Assembly: GCA_017745195.1 (NCBI GenBank) | Contig: JAGHZW010000235.1 | Span: 16,611-80,610 of the forward strand | Origin: Pseudoxanthomonas sp. | GTDB lineage: Bacteria > Pseudomonadota > Gammaproteobacteria > Xanthomonadales > Xanthomonadaceae | Length of the DNA stretch: 64,000 nucleotides | Direction of reading: 5' to 3' | Notes under the pieces: generated by a model | The model's database searches: none | What the model saw: only the letters and a program-made list of their open reading frames with translations | What the model was told of the DNA's origin: nothing | Program-made: the position numbers and the translations under genes | Shown here: one piece after another, positions 7,521 through 40,267 of the stretch | Layout: every line of letters begins with the position of its first letter | Position numbering within the stretch: the first letter of the stretch is position 1

Positions 7521-10500
7521 ATGAAATCCACTTCTTCCGGTGGCAAACGCATGACGAAGCCAGCCAGGGCCACGCCGGCGAAAGCGGCGGCGTCCGCGGC
7601 GTCGGGGCGCTTCTCGCTGGAGCCGGTGTATGCGGCCGCGCGCCGCCTTGCGCCGGCCGCGCGCCAGGCCGAGCTGCAGGAATTCCTCGGCGAGTTCTAC
7701 CGCCGGCTGGAAGAAGACGAGTATCCGCAGCACACGCCGCAGACCTGGGCCGCGATGGGCATCGACATCCTCGGCTTCGCGCGAAAGCGCAAGCCCGGCA
7801 CGGCCAGCGTGCGCGTGTTCAACCCGACCGCCGCGGCCAACGGCTGGGATTCGCCGTACACGATCCTGCAGATCGTCAACGACGACATGCCGTTCCTGGT
7901 CGACTCGGTCAGCATGGCGCTGGCCGACATGGGCGTGGGCGTGCACGTGCTGGGCCATCCGCTGGTGCGCATCGCCCGCGACGGCAACGGCAAGCTGCTC
8001 TCGGTCGGCGACGGCCGTCCCGAATCGATGATGCTGCTGGAGATCGACCGCCAGCCGCCGTCCGCGATGCGCGAGATCGAGCAGCGCGTGGCCGCGGTGC
8101 TGGCCGAGGTCCGCGGCGTGGTCGCCGACTGGGGGCTGATGCGCGAGCGCATGCAGGTGCTGGCCGACGACCTGGCCACGCGGCGCATGCCGGTGGACGA
8201 TACCGGCCGGCGCGAGGCGCAGGAGTTCCTGCGCTGGACCGCGGCCGACCACTTCATCCTGTACGGCTACCGCGAATACAAGGTGGTGAAGCAGGGCGGC
8301 GAATCGGTGCTGGCCCCGGTCGAGGGCTCGGGCCTGGGCCTGATGCGCGGCAAGGACAACGCGCCGCCGCGGCCGGTGAAGTCGCTGGCCGCGCACGGGC
8401 TGAACCAGTCCGGCACCCCCGAGGCGCTGATCCTGACCAAGACCAACGCCCGCTCGCGGATCCACCGCAAGGGCTACATGGACTACATCGGCGTGCTGGA
8501 GTTCGATGCCAACGGCACGATCACCGGCGAGCAGCGCTTCCTCGGCCTGTACACCTCCAGCGCCTACAACCGCCGGCCGTGGGAGATCCCGCTGGTGCGC
8601 GAGCGCTACGAGCACGTCATGCGCCGCAGCGGCCTGTCGCCGAGCAGCCACAGCGGCAAGGCGCTGCGCCACATCCTGGAGACGCTGCCGCGCGAGGAGC
8701 TGTTCCAGTCCAGCGAGGAAGAGTTGTACCGCACCGCGACCGGCGTGCTTGGCCTGCAGGAGCGGGTCCGCAGCCGGCTGTTCCTGCGCCGCGACCGCTA
8801 CGGCCGCTTCTTCTCGGCGCTGGTCTACATCCCGCGCGAGCGCTTCAACACCGACGTGCGCCTGCGCATCGAGGCGCTGCTGAAGGACGCGCTGCACGGC
8901 GAGCAGGTCGATTCGAGCGTGGTGCTGGGCGAGTCTCCGCTGGCCCAGCTGCACCTGATCGTGCGCCCGCGCGCGGGCACAGTGGCCGACCTGGACACCG
9001 GCGAGCTCGAGCGCCGCCTGGCCCACCTGCTGCGCAACTGGCAGGACGACCTGCGCGAACTGCTGATCGCCCGTCATGGCGAGGCCGAGGGCCTGCGCCT
9101 GGCCAACGTCTACGGCCGCGCCCTGCCGGCGGGCTACATCGAGGACATCTCGCCGGAGCTGGCCGCCAACGACGTCGAGCAGCTGGCCGCGCTGACCGGC
9201 CCGGACGACCTGCGGCTGAGCCTGCACGCGGTCAGCCGCGAGGGCACTTCCGGCCTGCGCCTGAAGCTGTACCGCCAGCACGACGACATCCCGCTGTCGG
9301 ACGTGCTGCCGCTGATGGAGAACATGGGCCTGAAGGTCATCTCCGAGCACCCGTACCGGCTGCAGGCCAGCCTGGACAACGGCGGCAGCCAGCCGATCTA
9401 CATCCAGGACTTCGAGGTCGAGCGCGCCGCCGCCGGCGGCGACATCGGCGCGCTGGCGCCGGCGTTCGAGCAGGCCTTCGCTGCGATCTGGTCGGGCCGC
9501 GCCGAGAACGACGGGCTCAACCGCCTGGTCCTGTCCGCCGGACTGGAATGGCGCCAGGTCGCGCTGCTGCGCGGCTACTGGAAGTACCTGCTGCAGACCG
9601 GCGTGCCGTTCTCGCAGAACTACGTCGAGGAGACGCTGGGCCGCTATCCGTTGCTGGCGCGGCTGCTGGTCGAACTGTTCGAGGCCCGTTTCCACCCGTC
9701 CACCGGCCATGAAACAGCCGCGCAGATCCTGGCCGGGCAGCAGCGCCTGGTCGACCACCTGCGCGTGCTGGCCGGCGGCGACGAGTCGGTGATCCGTTCG
9801 CTGCAGGAGGTGGTCGATGCGCGCAGCGCCGATCGCGCCACCCAGGAGAGCGTCACCCGCGGCGCGCTGCTGAAACTGCTCGACCGCGTCTCCAGCCTGG
9901 ACGACGATCGCATCCTGCGCGGTTTCATCGGCGCGATCGACGCGACCCTGCGTACCGGGTATTTCCAGATGGCCGCCGACGGCCAGCCCGGCCACTGCAT
10001 CAGCTTCAAGTTCGATTCGGCGCTGGTGCCGGACCTGCCCAAGCCGCGTCCGTACCGCGAGATCTTCGTCTACGGCCCGCGCGTGGAAGGCGTGCACCTG
10101 CGCTTCGGCCCGGTCGCCCGCGGCGGCCTGCGCTGGTCGGACCGGCGCGAGGACTTCCGCACCGAGGTGCTGGGCCTGGTCAAGGCGCAGATGGTGAAGA
10201 ACACCGTGATCGTGCCGGTCGGCGCCAAGGGCGGCTTCTTCGTCAAGCAGCCGCCGGTGTCCGGCGACCGCGACGCGGTGCTGGCCGAGGGCGTGGCCTG
10301 CTACAAGCTGTTCATCCAGGGCCTGCTCGACATCACCGACAACATCGTCGACGGCAGGATCGTGCCGCCGCGCGACGTGGTCCGCCACGACCAGGATGAT
10401 CCGTACCTGGTGGTCGCCGCCGACAAGGGCACCGCGACCTTCTCCGACATCGCCAACGGCCTGGCCATCGCCCATGGCTTCTGGCTGGGCGACGCGTTCG

Positions 10501-34485: not shown

Positions 34486-37400
34486 ATGCTGCGCCATCTC
34501 CTTTCCTTCGAGCGCCGGCTGCTGCTGCGCAACGGCGTGTTCTGGATCGTCATGCTGGTATTCGCCCTGCTCGGCTTCGGCAGCATGGCCTCGGACAACG
34601 TCAGCTTCGGCGGCGGCGTCGGCAACATCCTGCGCAACGCGCCAGCGGTGGTGATCAGCCTGCTCGGCAGCTTCAGCGTGCTGGCGGTGCTGCTGACCAC
34701 GATCTTCGTCGCCGGCATTGCCTTGCGCGATTTCGAGCAGCGCACCGCCGAGCTGTTCTTCGCCACGCCGATGCGCAAGCGCGACTACCTACTCGGCCGC
34801 TTCGGCGGCGGCCTGCTCGCCAGCCTGGCGATCCTGGTCGCGGCCGCGTTCGGCCTGTGGCTGGGCAGCCTGATGCCATGGCTGGACCAGGCCCGGCTCG
34901 GGCCGACGCCGTGGACCGCGTACGCCTGGGCGTTCGGCGTGCTGGTGATCCCGAACCTGCTGTTCCTGTCGGCGTTGCTGTTCCTGCTGGCGACGCTGAC
35001 CCGCTCGATGCTCTACACGTACATCGGCGTGATCGCGTTCTTCGTGCTGTGGACGGTGTCCGGCAACCTGACCCAGGACCTGGATACGCGCTGGATCGGC
35101 GCCCTGCTCGATCCCTCCGGCACCACCGCGGTGGGCGAGCACATCCGCTACTGGTCCAGCGCGCAGTACAACGGCCAGTTGCCGGCACTGACCGGGTTGC
35201 TGCTCGGCAACCGCGCCCTGTGGCTGGGCGTGGCCGCCGTGCTGCTCGGGGCCGCGTTCCGGCTGTTCCGCGCCGACCGTGAAGGCCTGGTGCTGCGCCG
35301 GCGCAAGGCCACCGCGTCCGCGCCGGCCGCCGCGCAACCCGGCGTCGCCGCCGCGGCGGTGCCGCTCGCCCTGCCGCAGGTCACCCTGCGCGAGGGCGCC
35401 GCCGCCCGCTGGGCCCAGTACCGCCAGCTGGCCGCGTTCGACCTGCGCGGCGCGCTGACCGGTGCGCCGTTCCTGGTGATGCTGGTACTCGGCCTGCTGA
35501 TGATCTTCAGCGTGCTCAAGTTCGGCTCGAGCATGTATGGCACCGAGCTATACCCGGTGACACGCCGGATGCTGTCGACGATCGAGGGCGGCATGAGCCT
35601 GTTCCTGATCATCATCGTCACCTTCTATGCCGGCGAACTGGTCTGGCGCGAGCGCAGCCTGCGCGTGGCCGAGGCCACCGATGCGTACGCCCTGCCCGAC
35701 TGGATCCCGCTGGCCTCGAAGATGACCGCGCTGACCGGGCTGGCCGTCGCGTTCCTGCTCGCCGGCACGCTGTTCACCGCCGGCTGGCAGCTGGCCCACG
35801 GCTACACCGCGCTCGAGCCGCTGCTGTACCTGAAGGGGCTGGCGCTGACTGCGATCCCGTTCGTGCTGATCGCGGCGCTGGCGGTGTTCCTGCAGGCGGT
35901 CAGCGGCAACAAGTTCATCGGCTACCTGCTGATGATCGTGTATCTGGTCACGCGTGCCGCCATGGGCATGCTCGATCTGGACCACCTGCTGTACCGCTAC
36001 GGCTCGACCACGCCCGATCCGTATTCGGACATGAACGGCTATGGCCACTTCATCGGCCCGCACCTGCTGCTGCGCGGCTACTGGGCTGCGTTCGCCGCAG
36101 CGCTGCTGGTGGCGGCACTGCTGTTCTGGCCACGCGGCACCTCGCTGGGTCTGCGCGACCGGTTGCGCCAGGCACGGGCGCGCCTGCGCGGCCCGGCGCT
36201 GGCGACGCTCATCGCCTCGCTGCTGGTGTTCGCCGGGCTCGGCGGCTGGATCTTCTACAACACCAACGTGCTCAACGACTACGTGCCTGGCGACCTGGCC
36301 AGGGAGCGTACGGCGCAGTACGAGAAGGACTACCGCCAGTACAAGGACCTGCCGCAGCCGCGGATCGCCGCGATCCGCGCCGACGTGGACATCTTCCCGG
36401 AGCAGCGCCGTGTCGACATCCGCGGCGTCTACCGGTTGGAGAACCGCACTGGCGCGCCGATCGCCGACCTGCACCTGAACACCAACCCCAAGGTCGAGAT
36501 CCGCAGGCTCGAGTTCGGGCCGCACACGGTGGTGAAGAAGGACGACATCAACGGCTACGCGATCTACCGCCTGGCCACGCCGCTCGCGCCGGGAGAATCG
36601 CTGGACTTCCGGTTCGAACTGTCCAGCGCTCCCCACGGCTTCCCGCTGGATGGTGGTGGCACGTCAGTGGTCTACAACGGCACGTTCTTCAACAACTATG
36701 CCGCCCTGCCGCAGTTCGGCTACAACGAGCGCGCCCAGCTGCAGGACCGCAACGACCGGCGCAAGCAGGGCCTGCCGCAGCTGCCGCGGATGAACCCGAT
36801 CGGCGACGTGGCCGCGCGCGGCTCCAACTACCTGACCACCACCGGCGACTGGGTCGATTTCGAGACCACCGTATCGACCAGCGGCGGCCAGATCGCGCTG
36901 GCCCCGGGTTACCTGCAGCGCGAGTGGACCGAGGGCGGCCGCCACTACTACCACTACAAGTCCGAAGCGCAGCTGCTGCCGTTCTTCTCCTGGCTGTCGG
37001 CGGACTGGAAGGTGGCGCGCGACCGCTGGAACGACGTGGCCATCGAGGTCTACCACCATCCGACCCATGCCTGGAACGTGCCGCGGATGATCGATTCGGC
37101 GAAGAAGTCGCTGGACTACTACAGCCGCAACTTCGCGCCGTACCAGTTCCGCCAGTTCCGGATCCTGGAGTTCCCCGGCTACCAGTCGTTCGCCCAGGCC
37201 TTCGCTGGCACCATCCCGTACTCGGAGTCGATCGGCTTCATCGCCGACCTGCGCGACAAGGAGGACATCGACTACGTCTTCTACGTCACCGCGCACGAGG
37301 CCGCCCACCAGTGGTGGGCGCACCAGGTCATCGGCGCCAACGTGCAGGGCGCGACGATGCTGTCCGAATCGCTGGCCCAGTATTCGGCGCTGATGGTGAT

Positions 37401-38085
37401 GGAGAAGGAGTACGGGCCGCGGCAGATGCGCCGCTTCCTGCGCTACGAGCTGGACAGCTACCTGCGCAGCCGCGCGGCCGAACGGGTCGAGGAACTGCCG
37501 CTGGCCCTCAACGAGAACCAGCAGTACATCCACTACAACAAGGGCTCGGTGGTGTTCTACGCGCTGCGCGACGCGATCGGCGAGCAGCAGCTCAACGCGG
37601 TGCTGGCCGAGTTCGCAAAGCAGTGGGGCTTCAAGGGTCCGCCCTACCCGACCACCCGCGACTTCCTCGACCTGCTCTACGCGCGCACCGCGCCCGAACA
37701 CCATCCGTTCATCCGCGACCTGTTCGAGCGGATCGTGTTCTGGGACCACCGCGTCACCGGCGCCGACGTGCGCAAGCGCGAGGACGGCAAGTACGTGGTC
37801 ACGCTGAAGGTGCACGCGGAGAAGCTGTCCACCGACGGCAAGGGCAAAGAAACCCGGGAGCCGGTCGACGCGCTGGTCGACATCGGCGTGTTTGCGCGCC
37901 CGCCGGGCGGCACGGAAAGCGACGAGAAGGTCCTGTACCTGAAGAAGCACCGGATCACCGCCGCCGAGACCACGCTGGAACTGGTGGTGGACGAACTGCC
38001 GTACGAAGCCGGCATCGATCCGTACAACAAGCTGATCGACCGCAACTCCGGCGACAACCGCAAGAAGGCCACGCTGCAGCAGTGA
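34486..38085 (+). CDS. ABC transporter permease fused to M1-family aminopeptidase domain
   Basis: N-terminal ABC-2-like TMs; C-terminal VTAHEAAHQWWAHQVIG..SESLAQYSALMVMEKEYG (HExxH-E). Confidence 0.93.
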   Translation: MLRHLLSFERRLLLRNGVFWIVMLVFALLGFGSMASDNVSFGGGVGNILRNAPAVVISLLGSFSVLAVLLTTIFVAGIALRDFEQRTAELFFATPMRKRDYLLGRFGGGLLASLAILVAAAFGLWLGSLMPWLDQARLGPTPWTAYAWAFGVLVIPNLLFLSALLFLLATLTRSMLYTYIGVIAFFVLWTVSGNLTQDLDTRWIGALLDPSGTTAVGEHIRYWSSAQYNGQLPALTGLLLGNRALWLGVAAVLLGAAFRLFRADREGLVLRRRKATASAPAAAQPGVAAAAVPLALPQVTLREGAAARWAQYRQLAAFDLRGALTGAPFLVMLVLGLLMIFSVLKFGSSMYGTELYPVTRRMLSTIEGGMSLFLIIIVTFYAGELVWRERSLRVAEATDAYALPDWIPLASKMTALTGLAVAFLLAGTLFTAGWQLAHGYTALEPLLYLKGLALTAIPFVLIAALAVFLQAVSGNKFIGYLLMIVYLVTRAAMGMLDLDHLLYRYGSTTPDPYSDMNGYGHFIGPHLLLRGYWAAFAAALLVAALLFWPRGTSLGLRDRLRQARARLRGPALATLIASLLVFAGLGGWIFYNTNVLNDYVPGDLARERTAQYEKDYRQYKDLPQPRIAAIRADVDIFPEQRRVDIRGVYRLENRTGAPIADLHLNTNPKVEIRRLEFGPHTVVKKDDINGYAIYRLATPLAPGESLDFRFELSSAPHGFPLDGGGTSVVYNGTFFNNYAALPQFGYNERAQLQDRNDRRKQGLPQLPRMNPIGDVAARGSNYLTTTGDWVDFETTVSTSGGQIALAPGYLQREWTEGGRHYYHYKSEAQLLPFFSWLSADWKVARDRWNDVAIEVYHHPTHAWNVPRMIDSAKKSLDYYSRNFAPYQFRQFRILEFPGYQSFAQAFAGTIPYSESIGFIADLRDKEDIDYVFYVTAHEAAHQWWAHQVIGANVQGATMLSESLAQYSALMVMEKEYGPRQMRRFLRYELDSYLRSRAAERVEELPLALNENQQYIHYNKGSVVFYALRDAIGEQQLNAVLAEFAKQWGFKGPPYPTTRDFLDLLYARTAPEHHPFIRDLFERIVFWDHRVTGADVRKREDGKYVVTLKVHAEKLSTDGKGKETREPVDALVDIGVFARPPGGTESDEKVLYLKKHRITAAETTLELVVDELPYEAGIDPYNKLIDRNSGDNRKKATLQQ

Positions 38086-38118: not shown

Positions 38119-38144
38119 CACGGCTCTTCAAGGCGGCGGTGACG

Positions 38145-38480
38145 TGGCGGCGGCACTCCGGTGCGATGCGTACTGCCGCTCGTGTCCCCCGGCATCGGCC
38201 TTGCGGCCGCTGCCTCCTCCTTTACCTCCCGTCAGCACGCCCCGCACCGGAGCGCTTCACGATGGCTGGCGCTTCATGAAGCGAAGCTCCCAGCGTTTTT
38301 CGGCCGTCCCATTCAGCCGCACGCCGGCGGCTCGACAACGAAAGCAGGCACCTGCTGAAGGAAGCGCCGGCGACGCCTGGGAGGTCCGTCGCGATGCCTC
38401 CTGGCGGAAGGTAAAGGAGGAGGCTGCAGCTGCAAGCCGATGCCGGGGGACATGGACGCCAGAGGCATCGCAACGGACCG
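38145..38480. repeat. ~330-bp nested imperfect palindrome / long inverted repeat between convergent genes
   Basis: Arms ~38157-38232 and ~38403-38479 share inverted cores gtcccccggcatcgg and gcctcctcctttacc (15 nt each); additional palindrome CGCTTCATGAAGCG at 38270-38283. Confidence 0.85.
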
Positions 38481-38505
38481 CCGAGCCACCTTTTCGTCCG
38501 CTGTC

Positions 38506-40107
38506 TCAGCGCAGATCCCCGATCACCACCTGCGCCGCGTTGTGCCCCGGCGCGCCGGTCACGCCACCACCCGGATGCGCGCCAGAGCCGCACAGGTACA
38601 GCCCCGGGATCGCGCCGCGGTAGTCGGCCTGGCCCAGCATCGGCCGCGCCGAGAACAGCTGGTTCAGGCTCAGCGCACCGTGGAAGATGTCGCCGCCGAC
38701 CAGCCCGAACACCCGCTCCAGGTCCAGCGGACTGAGCACCTGCCGGCCCAGCACCGAAGCGGCGAAGCCCGGCGCGTAGCGGTCCACGGTCGCGACCATC
38801 AGGTCAGCGACCTCCTCGCGATGGTTGTCCCAGCTGCGGCCACCAGGCAGTTCGGGCGCGACGTGCTGGCAGAACAGACTGGCCACGTGCATGCCGGGCG
38901 GCGCCAGCGAATCGTCGAGCGTGGACGGAATCAGCATTTCCACGATCGGCTCGCGTGACCAGCCGTGCTCGCGTGCGTCGCGCCAGGCACGATCCATGTA
39001 GTCCAGCGAAGGCGCCAGGATGATCCCGGCGGTGAGGTGGTCGCCCTCGCCCGGCAGTACACTGAAATCCGGCAGCCGCGACAGCGCCACGTTCATGCGG
39101 AACGTGCCCGAGCCGCAGCGCCAGTTGCGCATCCGCTCGGCGGTCGCCACCGGCACCGCCGTCGCCGGCAGCAGTTGCTGGTAGAGCAGCTTCGGATTGA
39201 CGTTGGCGACCACCGCGCGTGCGCGCAGCGTTTCCCCGGCCCCGGTGACCACGCCGACCGCGCGACCACGCTCGACCAGCACCTCGCGCACGCCGGCATC
39301 GGTGCGGATCTCCGCGCCCGCCGCGGTCGCCGCGGCGGCCATCGCCCGGGTGATCGCGCCCATGCCGCCGATCGCATGGCCCCACGCGCCCTTGACGCCG
39401 TTCACCTCGCCGAACACGTGGTGCAGCAGCACGTAGGCCGAACCCGGCGCGTACGGACTGGCGTAGTTGCCGACCACGCCATCGAAACCGAACAGCGCCT
39501 TGATCGGATCGCTCTCGAACCAGCGGTCCAGGTATTCGGCCGCGGAGATCGAGAACAGGTCCAGCAGTTCCTGGCGCAGCGTCTCGTCCAGCGCATGCAG
39601 GCGCCGGCCCAGCCGCGCGCCGCGCAGCAATTCCGGCAGCGCCTTCCACCAGCCGCCGTCGGTGATGTTCGGCGGCGCCTGCAGGGCCAGCGCGCGCAAC
39701 ACATCGGCGATCGCGTCCAGCCGCGCTTCGTACGCGGGCAGCGTTCCGGCGTCGCGGCGCGAGAACTTCGCCACTTCCTCCGCGGTGCGGCCGGCACCCG
39801 TCAGCAGGTAGCCGCCATCGGGCAAGGGCAGGAAGTTGTTGCGCCGGCGCTGGACGATGCGCAGGCCGTGGCCGTGCAGGTCCAGGTCGGCGATCACCTT
39901 CGGCTGCAGCAGCGACACCGTGTACGAGGCCACCGAGTTGCGGAAACCCGGATGGAATTCCTCGGTCACCGCCGCACCGCCGACTACCCCACGGCGCTCG
40001 AGCACGGTGACCTTCAATCCGGCCCGGGCCAAGTAGGCGGCGCAGACCAGGCCGTTGTGGCCGCCGCCGATGAGCAGGACATCACGGTTTCTTGCGGGGT
40101 TTTCCAT
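38506..40107 (-). CDS. FAD-dependent oxidoreductase, phytoene desaturase/PYROXD2-like
   Basis: DVLLIGGGHNGLVCAAYLARAGLKVTVLERRGVVGGAAVTEEFHPGF; C-terminal GLYLCGSGAHPGGGVTGAPGHNAA. Confidence 0.93.
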   Translation of the reverse strand: MENPARNRDVLLIGGGHNGLVCAAYLARAGLKVTVLERRGVVGGAAVTEEFHPGFRNSVASYTVSLLQPKVIADLDLHGHGLRIVQRRRNNFLPLPDGGYLLTGAGRTAEEVAKFSRRDAGTLPAYEARLDAIADVLRALALQAPPNITDGGWWKALPELLRGARLGRRLHALDETLRQELLDLFSISAAEYLDRWFESDPIKALFGFDGVVGNYASPYAPGSAYVLLHHVFGEVNGVKGAWGHAIGGMGAITRAMAAAATAAGAEIRTDAGVREVLVERGRAVGVVTGAGETLRARAVVANVNPKLLYQQLLPATAVPVATAERMRNWRCGSGTFRMNVALSRLPDFSVLPGEGDHLTAGIILAPSLDYMDRAWRDAREHGWSREPIVEMLIPSTLDDSLAPPGMHVASLFCQHVAPELPGGRSWDNHREEVADLMVATVDRYAPGFAASVLGRQVLSPLDLERVFGLVGGDIFHGALSLNQLFSARPMLGQADYRGAIPGLYLCGSGAHPGGGVTGAPGHNAAQVVIGDLR

Positions 40108-40267
40108 CCGCACAGGTATACCACTGGCCCTATACTGCGCGCGCAGGGGGCCCGCGGTCGGGGATCGGCGGCATGGTCGCAACGCCACAATTCCAGGCAT
40201 CCGTCCTGGCAGCAGCCATGCCGTGCATGCGTCCGGCATGCGCGCCGCTTCTTCCGTTCCGGTGAAC

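Follow-up and report, generated by a model that had tools for sequence, protein, structure and literature searches.

What is the long palindrome that separates two convergent genes in a species of Pseudoxanthomonas, and is it a single object? An earlier note on a 64,000-nucleotide stretch of this genome (the window, by which we mean the whole stretch) had described a nested, imperfect palindrome of ~330 bp at positions 38145-38480, and had suggested that it might be a MITE/REP-like element, an unusual bidirectional terminator or a structured ncRNA. The sequence and its long inverted arms were found as described: a repeat search returned arms at 38200-38251/38385-38436 (79%) and 38173-38199/38436-38462 (85%), and the predicted RNA fold of 38120-38500 (-230.6 kcal/mol, z = -9.1) was equalled in stability by none of 100 shuffled sequences, which sets it apart from chance. 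Both halves are also palindromic in themselves (38153-38178/38230-38255 and 38377-38400/38462-38485), and taken alone they are predicted to fold stably, with values of -58.5 kcal/mol (z -5.6) for the left unit and -56.2 kcal/mol (z -5.3) for the right. The palindrome is thus two inverted units of ~103 nt and a spacer, so that 'nested palindrome' is right for the arms but not for a single object. In the window copy the arms are predicted to pair with each other in preference to forming two local hairpins; they are alike enough for the long hairpin to be preferred, and it is this hairpin that was first noticed as a palindrome. The features of the locus are as follows.

34486-38085, plus strand: M1-type peptidase fused to an ABC-2 permease domain, convergent; its stop codon and the left unit are 64 nt apart.
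38150-38253, minus strand (sense): left unit, ~104 nt, consisting of outer stem, internal loop and inner hairpin; covariance-model match of 96.1 bits, E 3e-19.
38182-38190, minus strand: left unit, loop strand 2, GGGGGACAC; near-invariant columns.
38213-38223, minus strand: left unit, loop strand 1, AAAGGAGGAGG; near-invariant columns.
38254-38382, no strand: 129-nt spacer between the 5' ends of both units; at its centre lies a smaller inverted repeat, 38265-38282/38354-38371.
38383-38484, plus strand (sense): right unit, ~102 nt; covariance-model match of 88.2 bits, E 2e-17.
38413-38423, plus strand: right unit, loop strand 1, AAAGGAGGAGG; near-invariant columns in 59 and 124 units.
38445-38453, plus strand: right unit, loop strand 2, GGGGGACAT; near-invariant columns.
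38506-40113, minus strand: FAD/amine oxidoreductase, convergent; stop codon ~21 nt past the right unit; start codon uncertain, the longest ORF reaching 40269.

The flanking genes therefore converge on the element, as the earlier note had it. No promoters were found in the window spacer, and a plasmid search matched only the adjoining oxidoreductase.

The element is neither single-copy nor restricted to one strain. BLAST with the palindrome region gave 18 matches spread over 9 contigs of the own genome, and 15 of the 17 Pseudoxanthomonas genomes contained matches; this answers the check for dispersed copies that the earlier note had proposed. From the loci that were fetched, a profile search recovered 72 units, 59 of which were used for a covariance model (R1); this model made 16 matches in the own genome and found the unit in 8 of the 54 sampled genera of the Lysobacteraceae (Xanthomonadaceae). 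When a second model (R2) was searched across the order, the unit was confined to this family among the matches listed; outside the order, R2 matched three single units in G543, a more distant, class-level gammaproteobacterial relative. Copies counted with a strict DNA pattern numbered 69, 30 and 28 in the genomes G080, G146 and G180 respectively, and a reversed control pattern gave none. The window feature is one copy of a family dispersed in the Lysobacteraceae.

The consensus unit has an outer stem of ~23 pairs, a two-strand internal loop and an inner hairpin (GGCnnCGGCC/GGCCGnnGCC). The internal loop is purine-rich and near-invariant (strands AAGUAAAGGAGGA and GGGGGACAU), and the stems vary freely yet stay paired. 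In the 59 Pseudoxanthomonas units 97.0% of the cells were paired, as against 30-49% in a control with a slid partner, and changes on both sides were seen in 27 of 32 pairs. The 124 units from other genera, in which the outer-stem sequence differs from that of Pseudoxanthomonas, gave 96.4% and 29 of 32 pairs. Covariation of the kind by which a structured RNA element is recognized was thus present above the controls. In addition, the stems contained 129 G-U but only 13 A-C pairs (~10:1) in an alignment made from sequence only, and 233 compared with 27 in one built with a structure model; in the former the excess was present in both the outer and the inner helix (100:9 and 29:4 respectively). As the two should be equally frequent in a double-stranded palindrome or in a cruciform, this asymmetry indicates that the strand bearing the purine-rich loop folds alone. 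The simplest reading is that this strand acts as RNA, and folding of one strand as single-stranded DNA would fit the sequences too. With very strong covariation and this strand asymmetry together, the structured-RNA part of the ncRNA suggestion appears well founded. The loop contains AAGGAGG, which we take to be the classical Shine-Dalgarno core, and we regard this as a lead only.

The arrangement of the units is nearly uniform: the usual form is a head-to-head pair of two different units, situated shortly past the stop codons of genes. All 75 plain pairs in the first set of loci were (-)(+), with their 5' ends facing inward, and none was (+)(-); a second set, picked to include single units, added 12 and 1 respectively, for a total of 87 versus 1. 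Spacers ranged from 23 to 295 nt across the family, the two members of a pair belong to different types within a given species, and a local RNA fold was predicted in 52 of 59 pairs outside Pseudoxanthomonas. At L350:1397-2105 and L079:2339-3311 three or four units stand together in local arrays, e.g. (-)(-)(-)(+) and (-)(+)(+)(+), which suggests that these arose through tandem duplication of units.

With respect to genes, as called by a simple codon-usage script, the element loci comprised 55 convergent, 48 tandem and 8 divergent junctions, as compared with 37, 286 and 72 among element-free neighbouring junctions, i.e. convergent junctions hold half of the element loci versus 9% in the control, and no unit overlapped a called gene. 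Of the 22 single units that have <80 nt free on their 5' side, 21 share the strand of the upstream gene (9 to 0 in tandem contexts); with a 3'-side limit of 100 nt, the tandem contexts gave 8 sense and 7 antisense units. Taking all single units in tandem contexts, 19 were sense and 11 antisense, so the bias is limited to those near the upstream gene; part of it may be due to the space behind genes being shorter than that before them.

Is the unit maintained in place? In one genus (g4), three species have most element loci in common, and at these orthologous loci the loop had diverged by 0, 1.1 and 1.5%, compared with 6-10% for the flanking DNA (mostly coding), 6-14% for the stem and 21-35% for the spacer. 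Pairwise alignments of the orthologous units contained 58 pair-keeping double changes versus ~5 expected, and 36 pair-breaking changes versus ~186 expected. The three-species comparisons are non-independent and loci were picked by a detectable unit in at least one species, but dependence and locus choice are not likely to produce differences of this size. As the loop hardly diverges at sites where coding DNA and spacer do, these data clearly point to selection in place: both the fold and the short internal motif are maintained by selection, and the stable fold and conservation that the earlier note had asked about were both found. Gene conversion is an unlikely source of the loop conservation, because the stems differ among the copies of one genome and orthologous units are far more alike. 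Arms that had seemed to be replaced or swapped at some orthologous loci proved to be an artefact, as the model alignment was out of register by one base.

The window copy itself is retained at the same gene junction in another genome, G011, where the left unit is 88% and the right unit 83% identical (the right ortholog lying in L044). The nearest named relatives of the flanking gene are in P. daejeonensis, P. koreensis and P. kaohsiungensis. At this junction P. daejeonensis has the copy with a decayed left unit, and in P. koreensis the intergenic region is short and lacks the element. The P. koreensis junction (L085, ~8610-8720) carries a different inverted repeat, GAAAGGGGACGGAGGCAATTAAGC...GCTTAATTGCCTCCGTCCCCTTTC, and that of P. 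kaohsiungensis (L135, ~8650-9150) carries other large palindromes with cores GGCACATGGATGTGCC and GGACAGGACGTCC, which are probably a different dispersed family. This gene junction seems to attract palindromes.

For the family as a whole, we put at about an even chance the reading that it is a mobile-derived, structured 3'-end RNA element of REP/BIME-like layout that was later kept for function. The unit would be transcribed within the 3' untranslated part of transcripts and would work there as an RNA hairpin, the stem blocking 3' exonucleases or helping transcription to end, and the invariant loop serving as a recognition site for a protein or other putative partner. A pair would supply one sense-orientation unit to each of two converging transcripts. 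The element would probably have spread as a non-autonomous mobile element and then have been retained for its 3'-end function. Several observations speak against this reading: single units in tandem contexts occur in both orientations, a converging transcript reaches the nearer unit of a pair in antisense first, the window arms are predicted to pair with each other in preference to local folding, and the G-U/A-C asymmetry is also compatible with a single DNA strand that folds. More tentatively, and as something that we would call possible rather than probable, the family may be a bacterial 3'-UTR RNA element of a new class, which transposition has spread, with a loop that is read by a dedicated RNA-binding partner, forming a 3'-end mark shared by many unrelated Lysobacteraceae genes and having outlying copies in a more distant family.

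Evidence of movement bears on the first alternative. The G080 pair forms part of a ~420-bp repeat that is bounded by ~21-bp terminal inverted repeats (GGTTCTTCGCCCAATCGAGGG) and flanked by A/T-rich DNA. This repeat is present in roughly 40 or more copies, some internally deleted, and at its left end many copies are 90-98% identical over 82 bp. This ~420-bp element spread recently in one genus. Remnants of G080-type ends were found in g4, and around the window copy terminal inverted repeats were not recognized. Element positions are unshared between genera, save for one junction, and this, taken with the G080 repeats and their terminal inverted repeats, indicates that the family has been mobile, at differing times in different lineages. 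Dispersal of this kind, together with head-to-head pairs as in REPINs, would suit a purely selfish non-autonomous mobile element (MITE/REPIN-like), whose hairpins are the substrate of a trans-acting transposase and whose copies have no host function. We consider this unlikely, as transposition cannot explain a loop that at fixed orthologous sites is far better conserved than coding DNA. In addition, the search for target-site duplications recommended by the earlier note revealed none that was clear (flank similarity was barely above shuffled, and some ends were misplaced by the script), and no autonomous parent or transposase for the G080 repeat was seen among the best 40 candidates per genome.

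Linkage to RAYT transposases was considered and rejected. The 45 Y1_Tnp loci, usually covering ~1.5 kb on each side, had no unit beside them and matched it only weakly (17.9-33.4 bits): the matches in L232 and L171 proved to be other REPs, and those in L186 and L175 scored 19.0 and 17.9 bits. Moreover, Y1_Tnp was absent from the copy-rich genomes G180 and G195 despite their 28 and 20 element copies. RAYT transposases are, as far as tested, excluded as movers. In this bacterial family the RAYTs are flanked by a REP of their own (GTAGGAGCGGCTTCAGCCGCGA or variants of it), which is unrelated to the unit; it lies at L232:1301-1365 and 1904-1968 and at L171:1043-2182, there in ~121-bp tandem blocks. 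RAYT-type REPs (TAGGAGCCGGTCTTGCCGGCGAC) are also inserted in the spacer between two units at L055 and L056. From the MITE/REP-like suggestion, the dispersed copies and the inverted extragenic pairs can be kept, but the RAYT-linked REP cannot, and MITE-type terminal inverted repeats are clear only in one other genus and come with no clear target-site duplication.

It is distinctly unlikely, in our judgement, that the pair is a bidirectional terminator for convergent genes, in which the antisense reading of the nearer unit gives a GC-rich hairpin and, behind it, the C/U-rich CCUCCUCCUUUA, a motif that would be conserved as a weak U-tract. In the (-)(+) layout a converging transcript does reach the nearer unit in antisense first, so both genes are given the orientation required; many pairs start a few to 50 nt from stop codons, and several such junctions contain no other terminator. 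However, the G-U/A-C asymmetry in both helices favours folding of the opposite (sense) strand, close single units are sense and not antisense to the upstream gene, and the long outer stem and conserved loop strand GGGGGACAU are left unexplained. The C/U-rich motif has only 6 to 8 U in 13. A terminator scan of the window region found two weak sites only, both in the spacer, with no intrinsic terminator at the window units. Termination, which the earlier note had raised, is a possible role, yet no strong U-tract follows the unit.

That the element is a site on DNA, where a protein of the nucleoid, of replication or of recombination binds a cruciform or a single-stranded hairpin, is in our view very unlikely: the palindromes, the convergent location and the conserved loop are all compatible with a hairpin-binding protein, but in a two-strand cruciform G-T and A-C should be equally frequent, where ~10:1 was observed, and no enzyme candidate was found. 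A protein-coding explanation was dropped, as the ORFs of 159 and 123 aa that cross the palindrome region matched no Pfam family, in agreement with the earlier note's failure to see a confident coding frame, and the unit is variable in length.

Most bacterial dispersed palindromes are regarded as parasites or as passive mRNA stabilizers. For the structured 3'-end RNA element proposed here, fixed orthologous loci allow both compensatory change and the conservation of the loop to be traced, and host use of a repeat thereby becomes testable. The element can be detected with the covariance models R1 and R2, and its near-invariant loop leads one to expect a specific partner.

Among known repeats, ERIC, Correia/NEMIS and similar MITE-like elements are intergenic, ~100-400 bp long, contain inverted repeats and are likely to be transcribed. 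The present unit differs from these in its two local hairpins and conserved loop, and in having terminal inverted repeats in one genus only, and to our knowledge it has no sequence relation to them. REP/BIME/REPIN elements, which are moved by RAYT (Y1_Tnp) transposases (PMC2817692, PMC3116915, PMC3686654), are a further parallel, as the unit is also dispersed, extragenic and palindromic, and often lies in inverted pairs behind genes. However, those elements are 20-40 nt long with a 5' GTAG tetranucleotide, whereas our unit is ~100 nt, lacks GTAG, has an invariant two-sided internal loop and shows no RAYT linkage; the 13 Stenotrophomonas REPs of PMC3686654 bear no resemblance to it. The GTAG/CGTC-tagged superfamilies likewise consist of intergenic palindromes that are often oppositely oriented and lie between unidirectional and convergent genes (PMC3733652), but the foot of the unit has no such tag, and the main text of that paper does not mention Pseudoxanthomonas, Lysobacter or Xanthomonas. 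In its covarying stems and conserved loop sequence the unit is like the structured RNA families of Rfam, none of which matched it, the best matches being at chance level and far below thresholds. A literature search, with subscription papers outside its reach, found no earlier description of the element. The family thus appears to be undescribed so far, combining a REP/BIME-like layout with a unit size, an internal loop, an RNA-type covariation and an absence of RAYTs that, judged from the sequences, distinguish it from those systems.
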